A stretch of DNA of 35,096 nucleotides from the IMG/VR virus record IMGVR_UViG_3300032116_000702, positions 1 to 35,096 of that record. One strand, written 5' to 3'. This document shows positions 11,118 through 32,584 of the stretch, piece after piece. The position numbers were made by a program, and so were the translations under genes. This DNA comes from a virus. The notes below the pieces were generated by a model, which did no database searches, was not told where the DNA came from, and saw nothing but the letters and a program-made list of their open reading frames with translations. Position 1 is the stretch's first letter, and each line of letters opens with the position of its first letter.

Positions 11118-12396
11118 CTGGCGTTTCCTCCTGCTCGGCCTGGTCTTCGGCGTCATCCTCTGGGCTGTCTTCGTCTTCCACTGCTGGCGGCTCTGGCGTT
11201 GGCTCAGGTGCAGCCGGCTCGCCTGCCTTGTCGAGCGTGGTCATGTTCAACTGAACAAAGTGCTTGTCACCTTCCGGCCCGATCGGGTTGAGGTTCTCCA
11301 ACTCCCGGATCTCGTTCACGCTCATCCAGCCGTTCTGCAGTGCGGAAACGAAATACGCAGCACGGCTCGCGTGGTCGCCACGCAGCAAGCCCGTCACGCT
11401 GTGCTCAGCGAAGTACCGCTCGTCATCCACGATGAGATCCCGCGAGATGGCGGCTTCCCAACGCTTCAGGTGCGGCATAAGGCAATGCTGCACGAACTCC
11501 GTGCCTTGCACTTCGATGTTGTTGAACGTCGAACGCTCAAGGCTTTGGATCATGTGCGGCGGAACCCGGAACGCCCGGCAAATCTCAATGACTTGGTACT
11601 GCCGCGTTTCCAGAAACTGGGCGGCCTCGTTGCTGCCGCTGAGCTCGTGAGCCTTCACACCATTAGGCAAGACGGCAGTGCGGAAGGCACGATCGCTGCC
11701 CCGGTGCATCCGCTCCCACTGCTCCCGCAGACGTTCAGCAGCCTCGGCCGGAATCGGGTTGTCGCTCTCCAGCACGATGCCGGGCCGGGCACCGTTGCCG
11801 AAATACGTGCTGCCATGAGCCTCTAGCGCTTGAGCCAGCCCGATGGCGTTTTGAAAAATCCTGTACGTCGGCACCGGCGTCACGCCATCCTCGGTCGTGA
11901 ATCGCAGGCAGAAAATCTGCTCCTGGCTGTAGATCGTCTCGCGTCCGCTTGGCTCGCGGTACTTGTACCGAACGCTGCCGTTCTCAAGCCGCTCGGGCGT
12001 CATCCGGCTGGAGTGCAGCGGCCACAGCTCAGAGACTGCGCCACGAGCACCAGGGCGAATCTCGGCGTAGCTCGCACCGTAGTGCAGATACATGCCGGTC
12101 ATCCAATCGCGGAACTCTTGGGCCGTCTGCCACGGATTGGGCTGCATGTGCAACAGCCGGTAAATCGGGTGGCTCGTGGCTTTCGCCTTGCCGCCGTTGG
12201 CCATCCGCTCAAAGACGTGAAGCGGCAGCGAAGAGACGGCATCCGAGATGACGCGAATGCAGGCCGTGTAGGCCGAGCACGCCATGGAGTTATCGGCCGT
12301 GACGCGAATGCCGGAAGGCGTGCGGCTGCTCGACACGTCGGGCCAATCGATGCCGCGAAGCTCAAGCATGCGGTGGTCGGCGAGAACTTCGCTCAT
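11107..12396 (-). CDS. Portal protein (HK97 family)
   Basis: The product has 429 residues. The segments SAYTACIRVISDAVSSLPLHVFE, HPIYRLLHMQPNPWQTAQEF and RVPPHMIQSLERSTFNNIE are diagnostic of HK97-type portals. The C-terminus is an acidic, disordered tail (PEPTPEPPAVEDEDSPEDD). The ATG overlaps the TerL stop by ATGA. It forms the dodecameric DNA entry channel and docks the terminase. Confidence 0.96.
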   Translation of the reverse strand: MSEVLADHRMLELRGIDWPDVSSSRTPSGIRVTADNSMACSAYTACIRVISDAVSSLPLHVFERMANGGKAKATSHPIYRLLHMQPNPWQTAQEFRDWMTGMYLHYGASYAEIRPGARGAVSELWPLHSSRMTPERLENGSVRYKYREPSGRETIYSQEQIFCLRFTTEDGVTPVPTYRIFQNAIGLAQALEAHGSTYFGNGARPGIVLESDNPIPAEAAERLREQWERMHRGSDRAFRTAVLPNGVKAHELSGSNEAAQFLETRQYQVIEICRAFRVPPHMIQSLERSTFNNIEVQGTEFVQHCLMPHLKRWEAAISRDLIVDDERYFAEHSVTGLLRGDHASRAAYFVSALQNGWMSVNEIRELENLNPIGPEGDKHFVQLNMTTLDKAGEPAAPEPTPEPPAVEDEDSPEDDAEDQAEQEETPDGT

Positions 12397-14006
12397 AGCG
12401 TGATGATGTCCCAGTTTTGTTCTGGTGGCGGAGCCGTTGCCTTCGCGTGAATCCCGAGGGCCATAACCATGGCCACCATCCCGTCAATGCGTTCCGTGCT
12501 CTTGGCTTTGCTGAGTTTGCAGTTGTCTTGGTGGTCGGTTTGCAGGGCACAGTTGGCGGCCATCCAACTCAGCACGGGATGGCTCCCATGCCGCATCCGC
12601 TCCGACAACACGAGCGCCTCGAGTTGGCGGCAGGGGCTCGTCATGCTGGCGTAGCCCTGCCCGTATCCTTCCACATCGATCCCATCGCCTTGCAGTTGCA
12701 GGGATAGTTGCGTCGCGTTCCATCTGTCGATACCCACTTGCCGGATGTTGTATTTCTTCGCCAGTTCGTTGATGTCTCGCCGGATCACGTCATAGTCGGT
12801 GACGTTGCCGTCGGTGGCACGGATGTGCCCGTCGCGTATCCAGCCGACGTAGTCCACTTTGTCTCGCAGCGTCCGCTCGGCGGCGTTGGCCTCGGGTACC
12901 CAGAAGAACGGAAGCACGTCGAAGGTGCCGTCGCTCGCCTGGCTCACCATGACGAACGCCGAAAGGTCGGTGGTGCTGGCGAGGTCAAGCCCGGCAAACC
13001 ATTCCCGCTTCTCTAGGTCGGAGTCGAGCGGCTTGCCACACTTCGCCCAGGCGTCAGGCGACAGCCATCGCGTGTCCTGCGTGGTCCAGACGTTGAGCCT
13101 GTAACGCAAGAAGGCATTGAGCTTGGAAGGCGATTGCTCGGCCTCGCGGGCATCGGCCTTGAATGACTCCAGCGTGATCGTCTCGCCCAGGCTGGGGTTG
13201 GCTTGGTGCCAGACGCTTTCTTCCTTCCACGTCCCATCGGCACCGCACTCGGGCGGGGCGGCGTAGATGCAGCCGAAGAACGCCGGGTCTGTGGTCGGGT
13301 CGGCCGTGCACCGCTCGGCGTACTGGTGCTGCTCCCAGCAGATGCTTTTGCGGTCGAAGCCGGCCGTGGTGATGGACAGGATGAGTGGCGATCTGCGAGC
13401 CGCACCGCCGTACCGCAAGGCATCCCACAAGCGGCGGTCACGCTGGGCGTGCAGTTCGTCGAAGAGCAGGGCATGAATGTTGAGCCCCTCAGCACGGAAC
13501 GCGTCAGCCGAGAGCACCCGGTAGAACGAGTTGCTCGCTTTGTGCACGATGGTCTTGCGGCTGTCTATCACCTCGAGGTGCCGAGACAACGCAGGCGACG
13601 CCCGCACCATCGACGCCGCCTCGCGGTAGATGATGCCCGCCTGCTCACGGTCACAGGCCGCCCCGTAGACTTCCGCCCCCGGCTCGGAGTCGAAGGCCGT
13701 CATGTAAAGAGCGATGCCGGCCAGCGTCGTGGACTTGCCCTGCTTCTTCGGCAGCTCGATATAGCCGACTCTGTGCTGCCGCGTGCCGTCTGGGTTCAGC
13801 CGGCCGAAGAGTTCCCGCAGCACATGATGCTGCCACGGCAGCAGCGTGAACGGCTTGCCGGCATTCTGCCCTTTGCTGTGCCGCAGCACCTTCTCAAAGA
13901 AGTGCACGACACGCTCGTACTTCGCCTGACCTTCGGGCGTCAGTTCACGCGCCGTGGAGACGGAAGAAGTCTTCGACTTCGTCGGCGGGTTTCTCTTCCT
14001 TGCCAC
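12393..14006 (-). CDS. terL: Terminase large subunit
   Basis: The product has 537 residues and starts with GTG at 14006 behind AAGGA/GAGG; it overlaps the TerS stop by 62 bases. The ATPase domain carries a Walker A variant, LPKKQGKS (residues 85-92), and Walker B, LLFDE (180-184). The nuclease domain begins near GLDLASTTDLSAF with D341 and D347 as probable metal ligands, and later GIDRWNATQL. The layout matches HK97-type TerL (Terminase_1). It packages DNA into the prohead and cuts it; together with the P27-like TerS this supports cos or headful packaging, which cannot be distinguished here. Confidence 0.96.
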   Translation of the reverse strand: MARKRNPPTKSKTSSVSTARELTPEGQAKYERVVHFFEKVLRHSKGQNAGKPFTLLPWQHHVLRELFGRLNPDGTRQHRVGYIELPKKQGKSTTLAGIALYMTAFDSEPGAEVYGAACDREQAGIIYREAASMVRASPALSRHLEVIDSRKTIVHKASNSFYRVLSADAFRAEGLNIHALLFDELHAQRDRRLWDALRYGGAARRSPLILSITTAGFDRKSICWEQHQYAERCTADPTTDPAFFGCIYAAPPECGADGTWKEESVWHQANPSLGETITLESFKADAREAEQSPSKLNAFLRYRLNVWTTQDTRWLSPDAWAKCGKPLDSDLEKREWFAGLDLASTTDLSAFVMVSQASDGTFDVLPFFWVPEANAAERTLRDKVDYVGWIRDGHIRATDGNVTDYDVIRRDINELAKKYNIRQVGIDRWNATQLSLQLQGDGIDVEGYGQGYASMTSPCRQLEALVLSERMRHGSHPVLSWMAANCALQTDHQDNCKLSKAKSTERIDGMVAMVMALGIHAKATAPPPEQNWDIITL

Positions 14007-20592: not shown

Positions 20593-21355
20593 GCACGCCT
20601 CGCTTTCGGCAGATGGCCGTGGCAACGTCATTCGGCACCTGGGCACGTTTCAAGAATGCCCAGACCTCGATCATGTAGCGTGCGGAGTCGGGCCCGCTGC
20701 GTCGTGTTGCCCCATAGCCGGCATCGTCCTCGGTGAAGATCGCGCCGATTTCGTGCGTGTAGACGCACCCGGCCATAGCGGCGACGCTGGCATACCCAAC
20801 GGCGTCAGCCCACGGCCCCATTCGCCAATACTCATGCTTGCACAGCCAGGCCAGCCAATCGTGCCGGATCGCAGATCCGATGCCCGTCTCGCACGGCAAG
20901 GCATCGCTGGCCAAGTGCCGCTGCGCCTCGCCGGCAGTCATCGAGACGATGCCGCGAAACGGCACGGGCACGCCTCCGTGAACGTCTTGCCCCGGCTTGC
21001 GAACCATGTAGGCATGAAACACAACGGCGGCCTGCGGATGCCGCATGACGCTCTGCACGACGCCGGGGTGCAACTCGTCATCGGCACTGAGCCCGATGAT
21101 GTGCGAGCCGCTTAGGTAGGCGAACTGCTTAGCCGCTGCCTGCTCCCAGCAATCAGACTTTGTGACGTTGTGCTGCACCCATACGCAGTCGTACGCCATC
21201 GCAGCAGCGTCGGCCACGGCCACGCTGTTGTCGGTGCTGGCGTCATCGATCACTGCCACCTCGAGAGGCTGCTGCCGAACCGCCGAATAGATCGCCGCCC
21301 CAAGCGTTGCAGCGTGGTTCCGATTCGGGATGTAGACGCTCACGCCGAACTTCAA
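20585..21355 (-). CDS. Family 2 glycosyltransferase
   Basis: The product has 256 residues and starts with the typical GT2 N-terminus FGVSVYIPNRNHAATLGAAI, followed by VAVIDDASTDNS (nucleotide binding) and LSADDELHPG (DxD-type metal site, around residues 89-98). ATGA couples it to rusA. The substrate is unknown. Together with the next gene it forms a small glycan-modification unit inside an otherwise standard phage genome. Confidence 0.9.
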   Translation of the reverse strand: MKFGVSVYIPNRNHAATLGAAIYSAVRQQPLEVAVIDDASTDNSVAVADAAAMAYDCVWVQHNVTKSDCWEQAAAKQFAYLSGSHIIGLSADDELHPGVVQSVMRHPQAAVVFHAYMVRKPGQDVHGGVPVPFRGIVSMTAGEAQRHLASDALPCETGIGSAIRHDWLAWLCKHEYWRMGPWADAVGYASVAAMAGCVYTHEIGAIFTEDDAGYGATRRSGPDSARYMIEVWAFLKRAQVPNDVATAICRKRGVHA

Positions 21356-21750
21356 GAAACACGCACGGTTGTCCGTGCCTCCGTGCCGTAGCTCTTTTCC
21401 ACCACTAGGCGAGCAACCAGCGAGTCATCCCCCATCACGTCCTGCAGTGCGTCGAGCACGGCCTTGGCGATGTTGTCCACGTCGGGCCGTGGCAGCCTCG
21501 GGGCGTCTGGCCTCAAGACGCTCTTTCGCAGATGCGATTTCGGACGCACGAAGACGGCGTCAATCACGACGTTCAGCGGCTCGCCCGTCGTGCCGAGCCC
21601 GGCGTCACGGGCAGCAGCTGCGAGCGATGCACGGTAGTCGTGCACCGGGTGCGTGCTCGGCACGTACGCACGAGCGAAGCCGCCACGAGTCGAGACTCGC
21701 GGCCTCGGCTGCGGCACGGGGTCGCCCGGCACGGTGAACGTGATTGCCAT
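21352..21750 (-). CDS. rusA: RusA-like Holliday junction resolvase
   Basis: The product has 132 residues. The N-terminus (TFTVPGDPVPQPRPRVS) and the catalytic segment PRPDVDNIAKAVLDAL (D90, D92, K96, D100) with GDDS (107-110) are diagnostic of RusA. It resolves branched recombination intermediates, probably with the RecT of this phage before packaging. No Shine-Dalgarno is visible; the start codon lies inside a perfect 9-bp inverted repeat (21744-21766). Confidence 0.94.
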   Translation of the reverse strand: MAITFTVPGDPVPQPRPRVSTRGGFARAYVPSTHPVHDYRASLAAAARDAGLGTTGEPLNVVIDAVFVRPKSHLRKSVLRPDAPRLPRPDVDNIAKAVLDALQDVMGDDSLVARLVVEKSYGTEARTTVRVS

Positions 21751-21766: not shown

Positions 21767-21884
21767 CGGAGTCAAGCCGGACGGGTTCGGCGTACTACGC
21801 AGCACCCGCTCGCGTCTCGCGGCCGTGCGGCGTGGATTTGACCACCGATAACGCCGCTATGAGGTTCCGCATAATCACTGGTTC
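21751..21884. other. Non-coding gap between rusA and the attC-flanked genes
   Basis: The 134 bases hold the distal arm of the rusA palindrome and, directly after the stop of the upstream gene (21844-21885), a short weak hairpin bounded by GAGAAC and GTTATCG on the minus strand. The latter is reminiscent of a degenerate attC site, but its arms pair poorly. No convincing promoter was seen. Confidence 0.45.
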
Positions 21885-22196
21885 TCACTTTGTCCGTTCA
21901 AGAAGCGCGAGCAGTGCCGCCTTGTCCTCTGCAATGCCAGGAAAATCATCGTCCTCTTTGAGGTAGACGATGGCCGTCTTGATGGCGATCCTCTCAGCGT
22001 CTGTCAGCGCGGGCCAGCACACCGGAACAACACGTTCGCTCGCTGTCGCCACCCGCCGTGCATCTTCGTTCGTCAGGCCAAGGAAGCGAGTTCCTCCACT
22101 GGGATTCACAACTGCCCACGCCACAACAACGCCGTGAGAACCAGCGGATGCAGGAGACATCGCTGCCGAGTCATGCGGTTTCGTTTCGTCACTCAT
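21885..22196 (-). CDS. Hypothetical protein with a start signal inside an attC-like repeat
   Basis: The ATG at 22196 has AGGAG six bases upstream, and both lie inside the attC-like element 22136-22225; an alternative ATG at 22226 overlaps the preceding stop (TGATG). The 103-residue product continues VVVAWAVVNPSGGTRFLGLT and ends with PALTDAERIAIKTAIVYLKED ... LLALLERTK. The LTDAER ... LLxR ending is shared with the gene at 22564-22842, so the two belong to one family of small phage proteins of unknown function. The N-terminal 20 residues are encoded by the repeat itself. Confidence 0.72.
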   Translation of the reverse strand: MSDETKPHDSAAMSPASAGSHGVVVAWAVVNPSGGTRFLGLTNEDARRVATASERVVPVCWPALTDAERIAIKTAIVYLKEDDDFPGIAEDKAALLALLERTK

Positions 22197-22225
22197 GCGA
22201 TGCTCCTGATCCTGCGCGTTCTCCA
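22136..22225 (+). repeat. attC-like imperfect inverted repeat, copy 1
   Basis: Outer boxes TGAGAAC and GTTCTCC bound two paired arms. GGAT (22147-22150) pairs with ATCC (22210-22213), CAGGAG with CTCCTG, and CATCGC with GCGATG; G22151 and A22158 are left unpaired on the left arm. This is the R''-L''-L'-R' plan of integron attC sites with two extrahelical bases on one arm. It lies right after the stop of the 76-residue gene. Confidence 0.7.
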
Positions 22226-22456
22226 TCACTTCGCCGCGTTCGACCGCTCCCACTCGTCCCTCGGAACCAGAACCCACTCCTTCGTCTCCAACTCGCCAGC
22301 CAGCCTTTCCAGTTGGTCGCCAGTGACGTACTGCTCCGTAACGATTGCAACCACGCTGTTCAGTTCCATGCTAAGACGCAACGAACGAACGTACTTGAGC
22401 CCCAGCGCGTCAACGATCCTTCCAACTGCGTTGCCTTGTGATGTTGCTATCGCCAT
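22226..22456 (-). CDS. Hypothetical 76-residue protein in a cassette-like unit
   Basis: The start at 22456 has AGGAG eight bases upstream and lies about 16 bases after the end of attC-like copy 2; the stop (22228-22226) abuts copy 1. This is the layout of an integron gene cassette. The protein (MAIATSQGNAVGRIVDALGL at the start) has an alpha/beta pattern and ends VTGDQLERLAGELETKEWVLV followed by PRDEWE. Such short proteins occur in phages but have no assigned function. The two hairpins are oriented opposite to the gene if the extrahelical bases are read by the classical rule. Confidence 0.75.
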   Translation of the reverse strand: MAIATSQGNAVGRIVDALGLKYVRSLRLSMELNSVVAIVTEQYVTGDQLERLAGELETKEWVLVPRDEWERSNAAK

Positions 22457-22471
22457 TAAGAAATCTCCTAT

Positions 22472-22560
22472 GGAGAACCAGCGGATGCAGCGGACTCGCG
22501 ATTCCGTCTGCGGGTGTAGTTTCGTCAGCGGTCGCGAGCCGCTGATCCTGCGTGTTCTGC
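22472..22560 (+). repeat. attC-like imperfect inverted repeat, copy 2
   Basis: GGAGAAC and GTTCTGC boxes flank the arms. GGAT (22483-22486) pairs with ATCC (22545-22548), CAGCGG with CCGCTG, and CTCGCGA with TCGCGAG; G22487 and A22494 are unpaired. The bulges lie at exactly the same distance from the left box as in copy 1, while the stem sequences differ between copies by compensating changes. The central region differs in sequence but again forms a partial hairpin. Confidence 0.7.
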
Positions 22561-22563
22561 GTC

Positions 22564-22842
22564 CTACGCCAGCCGATCCAGCAGCGAGCGAAGTGTGGCG
22601 GCTGTCTTCGCTGCTTCCGGCACGGATTCGGCGTAGCGGTCGGCAGCGTCTGCAACAGCAGACCGCTCAGCGTCTGTGAGCGTGGCAACGTCGCCGCTGC
22701 GGATCACGTTGTCGGTGAACCGCAATCGATGCCGCAGTCGCTCAATCTCGCTCGCCGCCTCGTCCATGATGTCGCTGGCTGGCACCGCTTTGATGTCGTG
22801 GCACCACGCTCGTAGCTGTTCCACGATGTCACGCCTTGTCAT
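22564..22842 (-). CDS. Hypothetical protein with LTDAER ... TLRSLLDR ending
   Basis: The ATG at 22842 has GAGGGG six bases upstream; the longer frame to 23199 is a shadow. The 92-residue product begins MTRRDIVEQLRAWCHDIKAV, contains a helix EAASEIERLRHRL and ends LTDAERSAVADAADRYAES ... TLRSLLDRLA, a pattern of small phage proteins that I recall without a known role. It ends right before attC-like copy 2 and overlaps the HTH gene by 14 bases. Confidence 0.78.
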   Translation of the reverse strand: MTRRDIVEQLRAWCHDIKAVPASDIMDEAASEIERLRHRLRFTDNVIRSGDVATLTDAERSAVADAADRYAESVPEAAKTAATLRSLLDRLA

Positions 22843-23215
22843 GGTGCGCCCCTCTCGGCGTATTTGCTCCTCGCCGCCACGCAGCGGCCTTGCTGCGGGC
22901 GCACTCCGCTGGCTCACTGCGTCGCTCAAGATAGTGCCGCTCGCGCACCACCTTGGCTCGCTCCTCAACCCACGGCGACAGTGCCAGCCCTGCCAGCGAC
23001 GCTGCGTCATCCTCTGGCGTCGGGGCCGGTGCGTCGCAGTGCGACGGGTGGAGACGCTTCGGCAGCTTGTACCGCTGAGCCCACTTGCTGATCGTGCTGT
23101 TGGTGACGCCAAACCGCTCAGCCATCTCGGGGATCGTGGCACCTGCTGCCCACAGTTGGAACAGCAGGGCCACGTCCGCACGGCGGTGAGTTTTGGCAAC
23201 TTCGCTCGCCCTCAT
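22829..23215 (-). CDS. Helix-turn-helix regulator
   Basis: The 128-residue product has a resolvase/Hin-type helix-turn-helix at residues 18-52 (VALLFQLWAAGATIPEMAERF then GVTNSTISKWAQRYKLPKR). The remainder is basic and probably disordered. ATGA couples it to the sliding clamp gene. It probably regulates the early operon or acts as a small terminase-like DNA binder; the target is unknown. Confidence 0.78.
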   Translation of the reverse strand: MRASEVAKTHRRADVALLFQLWAAGATIPEMAERFGVTNSTISKWAQRYKLPKRLHPSHCDAPAPTPEDDAASLAGLALSPWVEERAKVVRERHYLERRSEPAECARSKAAAWRRGANTPRGAHHDKA

Positions 23216-24318
23216 GCGTCCTCCGCCAATGGCATGATCACGCCACGGTACTCGCCGCAGACGAGCGTGACGGCACCGCCAGGCCCAGTGGTGTGCACGA
23301 GCACGTTGGGCTCTTCGTCAGCCGGCAAGCCCGTCAGGTAGTCCCTGACGAAGTGCGGGTCCATCTTCACGCGGCACGCCGTCCCGGACTCGACGAGCTC
23401 GCACCGCACCTTGCTCTCGCCGTACTCGCTCGACTTCGCCGACAGCGTCAGCGACGAGCCGAAGTCGTACAGCACGCCCTTGCTCTGCTCGCTGGCCACG
23501 ACGGCCGCCGCCCTGGTCGCCGCCAGCAGCTCGCCACGATCGACGGCGTGCGGCTCATTGGCGGGCTCAGGGAACACGTCACGCCACTTTGGAAAGCGGC
23601 CGTCCACGAGCCGGGCCGTCAGCACGCCACCGTCAAAACTGAAGACCACGTCGCTGGCCGTCGCCTCAATCTGCACGCTGCCTTCGCTCCGCTCACTCAG
23701 CGTTGCTGCGAAGAGAGCGGCCACCACGGGCACGAGCGTAAGTGAACTGTCTGTGTCCTGGTCGTTTGACGTAGCAACAGCAGACAGCCGCCTCCCGTCC
23801 GTGCCAACAAACGTCGGATCCTCTCCACGCACAACCTCGATTAGCACTGCGCCCAGTGCGTACCTGCTCGACTCGCGGTCACAGGCGTATGCCACGGATC
23901 GCACGGCACGCACGAACTGATCCGCCGGCAGCCGGCAGACCGGCTTGGCGTCCGTAGACTCCCACGTCGGGAACTCAGCAACGTCTTCGCACGGCAGCGT
24001 CCACGAGCCACGCCCGCACTTCACCTTGACGCTGGCGCCGCTCGGCGTGAGCGTCACCGTGTCATCGTGCTTGCACGCCCGCAGAATCGCCAGCAGCCGA
24101 TCCGCCGGCAGCAGAAACGGCTCGCAGTGCTCGCCAATCTCGCGGTCAATGCGGATCTCCAGATTGGTGCCCGTGATGAGCCCGGCGCCGATGCGGACGT
24201 TGCCGAGAATCGGCTTCGGCCCACGGCTGCTCACCACCCTCGTCACGTCCATCATCGCCGCCAGCAGTTCGCCGGCAGCCATGCTCAAGCCCGTCCGCTC
24301 CTTCGTTGCCACATTCAT
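23212..24318 (-). CDS. dnaN: DNA polymerase III beta subunit-like sliding clamp
   Basis: The product has 368 residues, the normal length for a three-domain clamp. Recognisable clamp segments are LLAAMMDVTRVVSSRGPKPIL at the start, GTNLEIRIDREI, LPADQFVRAVRSVAYACDRESSRYALGAVL at the second domain, TDGRRLSAVA, and the C-terminal hallmark GVIMPL. The clamp tethers a polymerase to DNA; since no polymerase is encoded here, it would recruit the host enzyme. ATGA overlaps exist at both ends, so it is embedded in the early operon. Confidence 0.95.
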   Translation of the reverse strand: MNVATKERTGLSMAAGELLAAMMDVTRVVSSRGPKPILGNVRIGAGLITGTNLEIRIDREIGEHCEPFLLPADRLLAILRACKHDDTVTLTPSGASVKVKCGRGSWTLPCEDVAEFPTWESTDAKPVCRLPADQFVRAVRSVAYACDRESSRYALGAVLIEVVRGEDPTFVGTDGRRLSAVATSNDQDTDSSLTLVPVVAALFAATLSERSEGSVQIEATASDVVFSFDGGVLTARLVDGRFPKWRDVFPEPANEPHAVDRGELLAATRAAAVVASEQSKGVLYDFGSSLTLSAKSSEYGESKVRCELVESGTACRVKMDPHFVRDYLTGLPADEEPNVLVHTTGPGGAVTLVCGEYRGVIMPLAEDA

Positions 24319-31672: not shown

Positions 31673-32584
31673 ATGGCCATGACGTTGCGAGATTTGGTTG
31701 AGCGTTACGCCCTGTTACGGGGGCTCAAGGGGAAGACCGTCGCCCTGTACGGGATGCTCGTGGACAGGCTCGAGCGGTTCCTTGGGCACGAGCCCACCGT
31801 CAAGGATCTCGACGATCTGGTCATTGCCCGCTACCTACGGTGGCGAGCCGAGACACCTGGGTGGCGTGGCAAACTGCCGAGCCCGGCATCGGTTCGCAAA
31901 GACAAGGTGATGATTCAGGCCTGCTGGACCTATGCTGCCCGTAAGCGGCTGGCCGCCGAGTTCCCAGAGTTGCCCACCATCAAGGTGCCCAAGAGGCTAC
32001 CCACCGGCCGAGCCTACACAGCCGAAGACGTTTCCGCCTTGGTGCGGCAGGCTCGGCACCGCAATGGCTACATCGACGGGCTGCCTGCCGCATGGTGGTG
32101 GGGCACGCTGATCTACACCATCTACTGCACCGGGGAGCGCTATGAGGCCACCACGTCGCTCAGGTGGGGCGATGTTGACCTAGCCGGCCGTCGGGTCATC
32201 TTTCGCGGAGAAACCCGTAAGGGCTCAACCAGGGACATCGAGCGGCAGATAACGCCAGACCTCGCCGCCATGCTGGCCCAGCACCGGCGCGAGGATAGCC
32301 AGTTGGTCTGGCCGTGGGACCGGAAAAGCCGCAGCCAGTGGACGAGCCTGAAACTCCTGTGCAAGTCGGCCGGCGTCAAATACAGGGGCTTTCACGGCCT
32401 GAGACGCACGGCTGCCTCATATGCCGCCCTCGCCGGTGGACGGGCCGCAGCCACGCAGCTGCTCGATCACAGCGACCCCAACCTGCAGCGTGTCTACGTG
32501 GATCCGGTCATTTGCCCGAACGACAGCGACTCGACGGCAGCACTGCCGCCGCTGGACCTGAACGGGCCGGGCAAGCCGAGGTAG
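31673..32584 (+). CDS. int: Tyrosine recombinase / integrase
   Basis: The product has 303 residues. The catalytic set is complete: R156 (CTGERYEA), K183 (TRKGSTRD), H241-x-x-R244 (FHGLRRTAASY), H266 (LLDHSDPN) and Y275 (RVYVDP). The N-terminal 100 residues form a core-binding SAM-like domain. It is the only plus-strand gene and makes the phage temperate. The start at 31673 is used here; the ATG at 31679 is an alternative. The attachment site was not identified, but should be near this gene. Confidence 0.95.
   Translation: MAMTLRDLVERYALLRGLKGKTVALYGMLVDRLERFLGHEPTVKDLDDLVIARYLRWRAETPGWRGKLPSPASVRKDKVMIQACWTYAARKRLAAEFPELPTIKVPKRLPTGRAYTAEDVSALVRQARHRNGYIDGLPAAWWWGTLIYTIYCTGERYEATTSLRWGDVDLAGRRVIFRGETRKGSTRDIERQITPDLAAMLAQHRREDSQLVWPWDRKSRSQWTSLKLLCKSAGVKYRGFHGLRRTAASYAALAGGRAAATQLLDHSDPNLQRVYVDPVICPNDSDSTAALPPLDLNGPGKPR

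Follow-up and report, generated by a model that had tools for sequence, protein, structure and literature searches.

Background

Integrons have been studied as bacterial gene-capture machines, which sometimes carry anti-phage defences. Qi et al. 2023 (PMC9892861) reported integron components in 21 phages, including CALINs without an integrase. In that study, two of the virulent phages come closest to the usual layout of bacterial arrays, and attC sites from isolated virulent phages recombined with IntI1. Ghaly et al. 2021 (PMC8352920) observed that attC sites are conserved within taxa and that Planctomycetes exhibit a type of their own. Here we describe a phage locus that we interpret, with considerable confidence, as an integron devoid of its own integrase, made of an attI-like site, cassettes and attC sites encoding a gene start, on which a host IntI most likely acts in trans.

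The locus and its phage setting

The window (the whole stretch of DNA that was analysed) is an entire IMG/VR record of 35,096 bases. The presence of a gene for the terminase large subunit identifies the record as a phage. Profile matches also reveal a portal and a tape measure protein, together with RusA, a sliding clamp and a tyrosine integrase. The hosts of the virus are probably planctomycete bacteria, with no finer identification. The array is inserted within a run of minus-strand phage genes, with RusA on one side and the clamp on the other. The features of the record are as follows.

12393..14006, minus strand: terminase large subunit, marking the record as phage
21352..21750, minus strand: RusA, a phage gene flanking the array at its attI end
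21803..21883, plus strand: attI-like site, with a 30-nt core (21854-21883) and the crossover G|TT at 21881-21883
21882..22218, plus strand: cassette 1, bounded by the crossover points G|TT of attI and attC1 (limits inferred from the breakpoint rule)
21885..22196, minus strand: cassette 1 gene, 103 aa, MSDETKPHDSAAMSPASAGS-HGVVVAWAVV..., starting in the attC1 loop (from ORF, leader class and family)
22137..22222, plus strand: attC1, with R'' AGAAC 22137-22141, extrahelical G22150 and A22157, R' GTTCT 22218-22222
22194..22196, minus strand: codon in the attC1 loop at which gene 1 starts (from sequence)
22203..22208, minus strand: Shine-Dalgarno CAGGAG of gene 1, within the attC stem (from sequence)
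22219..22554, plus strand: cassette 2, the one noted first (limits from the breakpoint rule)
22226..22456, minus strand: cassette 2 gene, 76 aa, with its own Shine-Dalgarno (SD) and ATG (ORF)
22474..22558, plus strand: attC2, with R'' AGAAC 22474-22478, extrahelical G22487 and A22494, R' GTTCT 22554-22558
22564..22842, minus strand: 92-aa gene past the last attC, a phage gene or a remnant cassette (ORF)
22829..23215, minus strand: HTH protein, on the far side of the array
23212..24318, minus strand: DNA polymerase sliding clamp, a recurrent array neighbour (29 loci)
31673..32584, plus strand: phage tyrosine integrase, not an integron integrase

In our reading, the locus consists of an attI-like site and, behind it, two cassettes that are each closed by an attC hairpin. 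In the mechanism that we propose, an IntI-type tyrosine recombinase would fold a single strand of attC and swap cassettes at G|TT. The cassette genes are read against attC and attI, in the same direction as the phage genes. An attC equipped with an SD, an ATG and a leader of constant frame would double as the 5' end of a gene. Cassette 1 is of the kind that starts from its attC, and cassette 2 brings a start of its own. The stop codon of the cassette 1 gene overlaps the R box of attI. The initial annotation of this DNA had proposed that the 76-residue gene belongs to an integron cassette, and the gene indeed lies within cassette 2; its product exhibits no Pfam, PHROG or significant NCBIfam match. 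Both the attI-like site and the start codon in the loop of the first hairpin had been overlooked.

Two hairpins of attC type

Two 90-bp elements had been described at positions 22136-22225 and 22472-22560. Both are present there, and a fold check run on the plus strand returned the hairpins as described (shuffle z-scores of -2.3 for element 1 and -5.1 for element 2). When up to 3 mismatches are allowed, the window contains exactly two copies of the 18-nt left arm, against 0.06 expected. The core extends from AAC 22139-22141 to GTT 22218-22220 in element 1, and from AAC 22476-22478 to GTT 22554-22556 in element 2. The two unpaired bases of each element (G22150/A22157 and G22487/A22494) lie on one arm, 6 bp apart. 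Covariance model E-values are 4.5e-26 for attC1 and 3.6e-21 for attC2, both of which belong to the training set of that model. attC2 represents a subtype without an ATG in its loop.

The compensating changes that had been noticed between the two stems are borne out in 41 diverse relatives, where seven pairs are changed on both sides. The two-sided changes of the inner stem include GC->CG (11 sequences) and AU->GC (11 sequences). The proposed 19-pair structure leaves 94% of the cells paired in those 41 relatives, compared with 31-54% when the partner is slid. The extrahelical G is invariant and the A nearly invariant across the phage elements, and the same pair is found in host attC sites beside intI. 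An attC hairpin is expected to follow the plan R''-L''...L'-R' with AAC/GTT ends and to be conserved in structure above sequence, and the elements meet this criterion. The earlier caveat on the boxes holds: the phage R boxes are GTTCT or GTTAT, not GTTRRRY, and only AAC/GTT is retained. The lack of the classical RYYYAAC/GTTRRRY boxes weakens the case for a classical attC, with GTT remaining the crossover triplet. An Rfam search with E-values up to 1 gave no match for the locus.

A family of arrays in uncultured viruses

Pattern scans of viral contigs revealed more than a hundred carriers. A structural search identified 426 elements, distributed over 193 loci; the reversed sequences yielded 12. 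In 225 of 231 comparisons between adjacent elements the strand is shared, and the median gap between neighbours is 315 nt. The largest array (L236) contains up to nine attC sites. A CALIN is defined by at least two attC sites in a row without intI; the arrays satisfy this definition, the window holding two attC sites. Many of the carrier records are metagenome fragments. We considered whether the carriers might be chromosomal planctomycete arrays mis-sorted as viruses. This was ruled out by the terminase large subunits of one family found in 25 of the 50 array-bearing records tested, and it is also countered by the near absence of the phage-type sequence from species genomes: a scan of 84,980 of these with the core pattern returned 44 stretches, of which only a handful resemble real members. 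Searches of 50,697 phage records with the locus, by megablast and by distant blastn, returned no match, and no member of the family was found among annotated phages.

Two side observations concern the carriers. Three phage-type attC sites are found at L380:13485-14200, within a contig of 15.8 kb that belongs to the cyanobacterial assembly Cyanobium sp. FGCU52; this contig is probably a co-assembled phage. Further, the reading frame of the terminase match is interrupted by a single TAG in G310, G311, G333, G335, G329 and G330 (loci L076, L077, L224, L236, L209 and L212), and by TGA or TAA in a few other phages. These stops could reflect stop-codon recoding, an intron or a read-through artefact.

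An attI-like site at the head of the arrays

Arrays without an attC ahead of them are headed by a conserved sequence that runs up to the first GTT and has the consensus GGGTTATCCGGGTCCGCAGAAACACTG|GTT. We found 37 distinct homologues of this site in phage contigs, followed by unrelated first cassettes; even sites with upstream sequences at least 80% identical carry unrelated sequence after GTT. Compared with L117 (90%) and L385 (89%), the window exhibits identity from inside RusA up to 21883 and none beyond. A blind alignment of the stretch beside RusA was informative for L117 only. As an independent test, loci were fetched by the attI pattern alone, which yielded 30 new ones, 19 of them with at least 700 nt downstream. 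A same-strand attC was present within 2.5 kb downstream in 18 of these 19 usable loci, and none of the 30 had an attC upstream of attI. The site thus fulfils what is expected of an attI, being conserved, ending at G|TT at the start of the array and preceding a variable first cassette. Since no intI was found beside it in 100 viral records, we name it attI-like.

The best host counterpart is found at L358, about 200 nt from intI, with the sequence GGTTATCCAGGTCCGTACACTTACT|GTTAGCC and a score of 23.2 against a control maximum of 8.9. This likeness to host attI sites rests on few loci. Exact phage-type attI sequences were searched for in 392 Planctomycetota genomes with chance-level matches only, and the attI pattern was not found in the family of the L358 genome.

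Kinship with planctomycete integrons and the missing integrase

The covariance model R1 was built from phage elements only. Among 294 Planctomycetota genomes, R1 matches attC sites in 31, and IntI scores above its curated cut-off in 50. attC arrays adjoin intI in G111 (contig 11), G160 (two arrays), G167 (contig 35) and G239 (contig 328). The R1-matched attC sites beside intI end in GTTAGGC or GTTAGCC. Host sites such as GGCTAACAAGCCGATGCAGCGGACGGCCTTCGGCCGCCGCTGATCGGCAAGGCGTTAGCC exhibit the core and the unpaired G and A of the phage sites together with classical GTTRRRY ends, the phage sites retaining only the GTT of that box. That a model made from phage elements alone retrieves attC sites beside intI, and that breakpoints fall on G|TT (see below), bears out the attC identity first proposed; from these sequence comparisons the elements are supported as putative attC sites of planctomycete type. 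The likeness to planctomycete chromosomal arrays, raised in the initial annotation, stands as regards structure only, the phage-type sequence being nearly absent from the 84,980 species genomes.

We also observed attC-like sites with the same core outside Planctomycetota, at L159:4659-4716 in a Latescibacterota MAG, where the site ends in the classical GTTAGGC, and at L125 in a Cloacimonas MAG. In G160 (L363/L364), which contains two such integrons, the intI gene is oriented towards its own cassette array, not away from it.

A complete integron includes intI, and in this respect the phage arrays fall short. No IntI was found in 100 array-bearing viral records, though many of these are fragments, and a conserved recombinase gene adjoining the arrays was looked for and not found. 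In the absence of IntI from those 100 records, we infer that a planctomycete host IntI most likely acts in trans. By analogy with the phages of Qi et al. 2023, a host IntI appears the likely agent; its recognition of the phage sites remains an inference, made without recombination data. A recombinase of the phage other than IntI could instead move the cassettes. The product of 31673-32584 is the obvious candidate, being a tyrosine recombinase recurrent in these phages. However, its relatives occur in only 17 loci, usually several kb away from the array, it has no TIGR02249 match, and host-type attC and attI sites suit a host IntI better. We consider this explanation unlikely, and the phage tyrosine integrase a less likely agent than host IntI.

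Crossover points

To locate breakpoints, we took pairs of elements whose flanks are homologous on one side only, being unrelated on the other, and recorded where the identity ends. In pairs with homologous right flanks, identity begins at GTT and does not exceed background in the four spacer bases just before it; in 31 of 32 such families the element differs. The mirror image is seen in pairs sharing the left flank and the element, which are identical up to GTT with nothing in common beyond. Five contigs from different samples exhibit a near-identical body and an identical element followed by five different right flanks. The crossover is thereby located, at nucleotide resolution, at the G|TT of the 3' box, as required of an attC. 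The opposite reading, in which the minus strand would be the attC top strand (gene, then attC), was rejected: the element is shared in at most one of the 32 right-homologous families, and attI is always on the plus-strand 5' side.

There is a second class of breakpoint. Of 42 families with homologous left flanks, 28 keep the body up to AAC and continue with a different element, often from another subfamily. Bottom-strand recombination alone does not produce this change at the AAC box, which counts against our model. By inference, such breaks fit an exchange at the 5' box that uses the other strand.

The sites might also be dead derivatives of attC, left from an old capture and now shuffled only by phage recombination or assembly error. 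The phages indeed lack intI, the boxes are non-classical and metagenome contigs may be chimeric at repeats. Yet bodies more than 95% identical have different neighbours in contigs from different samples, the structure and the pairing of the boxes are maintained, and the partners share only GTT or about GAGAAC at the breaks, a stretch too short to serve either an assembler or homologous recombination. With so little in common between the partners, neither process explains the exchanges, and we regard dead sites as an improbable reading, of little weight.

Gene layout and start-encoding attC sites

The initial annotation had cautioned that the sites point opposite to the gene. This is true and systematic in the phages, and absent from the host arrays tested. 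In host arrays the long cassette ORF runs with the attC direction in 23 cases and against it in none (6 unclear); in phage arrays it runs against attC in 116 cases and with it in 31 (49 unclear). The classical layout of a cassette, with the gene along attC and attC at its 3' end, is thus not met, the gene being inverted and attC at its 5' end.

Among 298 distinct full-length elements, 242 contain in the loop, on the opposite strand, an ATG opening an ORF that exits the element. An SD-like tetramer is present in 221 of these 242 leader-bearing elements, the inner stem CAGGAG itself serving in the common subtypes, and 227 of them reach the element end in the same frame. Over 5,364 codons, 51 stops fall in the leader frame, compared with 223 and 226 in the two alternative frames. 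Examples of leaders are MSDENERSVASAGS and MSDDNTQDGAEPSPASAGS. One body may stand behind different leaders, as in 19 pairs with a body identity of at least 85% and a leader identity below 50%. By virtue of its ATG, SD and constant frame, the attC provides the translation start and the N-terminus, and exchange preserves the frame. We thus predict that the phage-type attC forms the 5' end of the cassette gene and that any body joined to it would be translated in frame; expression is itself inferred, no expression data being at hand. The frame, like the hairpin structure, the arrays, the attI-like site and the breakpoints, is read directly from the DNA.

Taking both classes of breakpoint together with this coding arrangement, attC may be a two-ended exchange module used on both strands, in which GTT moves a gene with its leader and AAC swaps the leader with its start, nearly always in frame. 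The host integrase would then run, to the advantage of the phage, a combinatorial shuffling of 5' ends that supplies counter-defence genes. Our judgement of this extended model is evenly balanced.

The location of the elements at gene starts, with the SD within an RNA hairpin stem, also raises the possibility of regulatory RNA, i.e. SD-hiding 5' leaders of ordinary phage genes exchanged by homologous recombination. We find this very unlikely, as the breaks fall on GTT/AAC where the partners have almost nothing else in common, the arrays open with an attI-like site that precedes unrelated cassettes, and the same architecture adjoins intI in bacteria. A dispersed hairpin family, whether MITE/REP, which the initial annotation had named among its refuting conditions, or IS200/IS605-like, is scarcely tenable despite the many copies of short imperfect hairpins, as the copies form ordered one-strand tandem arrays in which a gene separates successive copies and only one end bears an attI, and phage-type copies are nearly absent from chromosomes.

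Cassette cargo

Under the integron reading, the bodies behind the leaders are cassette cargo. Their profile matches include C5, N6/N4, MT-A70 and Dam-like methyltransferases, a weak match to Mom, several HNH nucleases, a HAD hydrolase and DUF551. Methyltransferase or weakly Mom-like genes with attC leaders are found at L183:10402-12081, L103:1930-2658, L223:3222-4298, L240:13562-14134, L071:862-1383 and L109:7138-7635. DUF551 is the cassette body behind an attC leader in 6 of the 61 members of alignment A2, which draws on many loci. One cluster of cassette proteins (197 members) is joined partly through common leaders, its bodies being mixed. It is plausible that several cargo genes are counter-restriction genes, a function that is inferred.

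Comparison with known systems

The kind of system is already known: integron cassettes and CALINs have been described, also in phages (PMC9892861), and so has the Planctomycetes attC type (PMC8352920). The models of PMC8352920 were derived from bacterial chromosomes, and R1 from phage elements. What appears from our data is that a broad group of uncultured phages keeps its own landing site and cassette arrays and leaves the integrase to the host. If this is true, a pool of cassettes, methyltransferases and nucleases among them, would be open to phages. The arrays also show how a single site can unite attC structure with coding, in such a way that shuffling yields a translatable gene nearly every time.

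A literature search, from which most subscription journals and all preprints were excluded, revealed no recombination site encoding an SD, a start codon and an N-terminus, and no start-encoding attC was found in the accessible part of PMC9892861. With the phage CALINs of that study, the present arrays share integrase-less attC arrays in phage genomes and methyltransferase cargo. They differ by their occurrence in many uncultured contigs, by a conserved attI whose place among the phage genes is fixed, and by the start-encoding attC sites. Like the planctomycete chromosomal integrons, they exhibit the attC core, a top-strand unpaired G and A 6 bp apart, an attI-type site, the G|TT crossover and an array direction set from attI. 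Unlike those integrons, they have no intI, their R boxes are GTTCT or GTTAT, their genes are inverted, and SD, ATG and leader lie in the attC loop. As far as the literature searched shows, the novelty thus resides in a phage attI without intI at a fixed locus, in inverted cassettes as the rule, in an attC that encodes an in-frame start, and in exchange at both of its ends.
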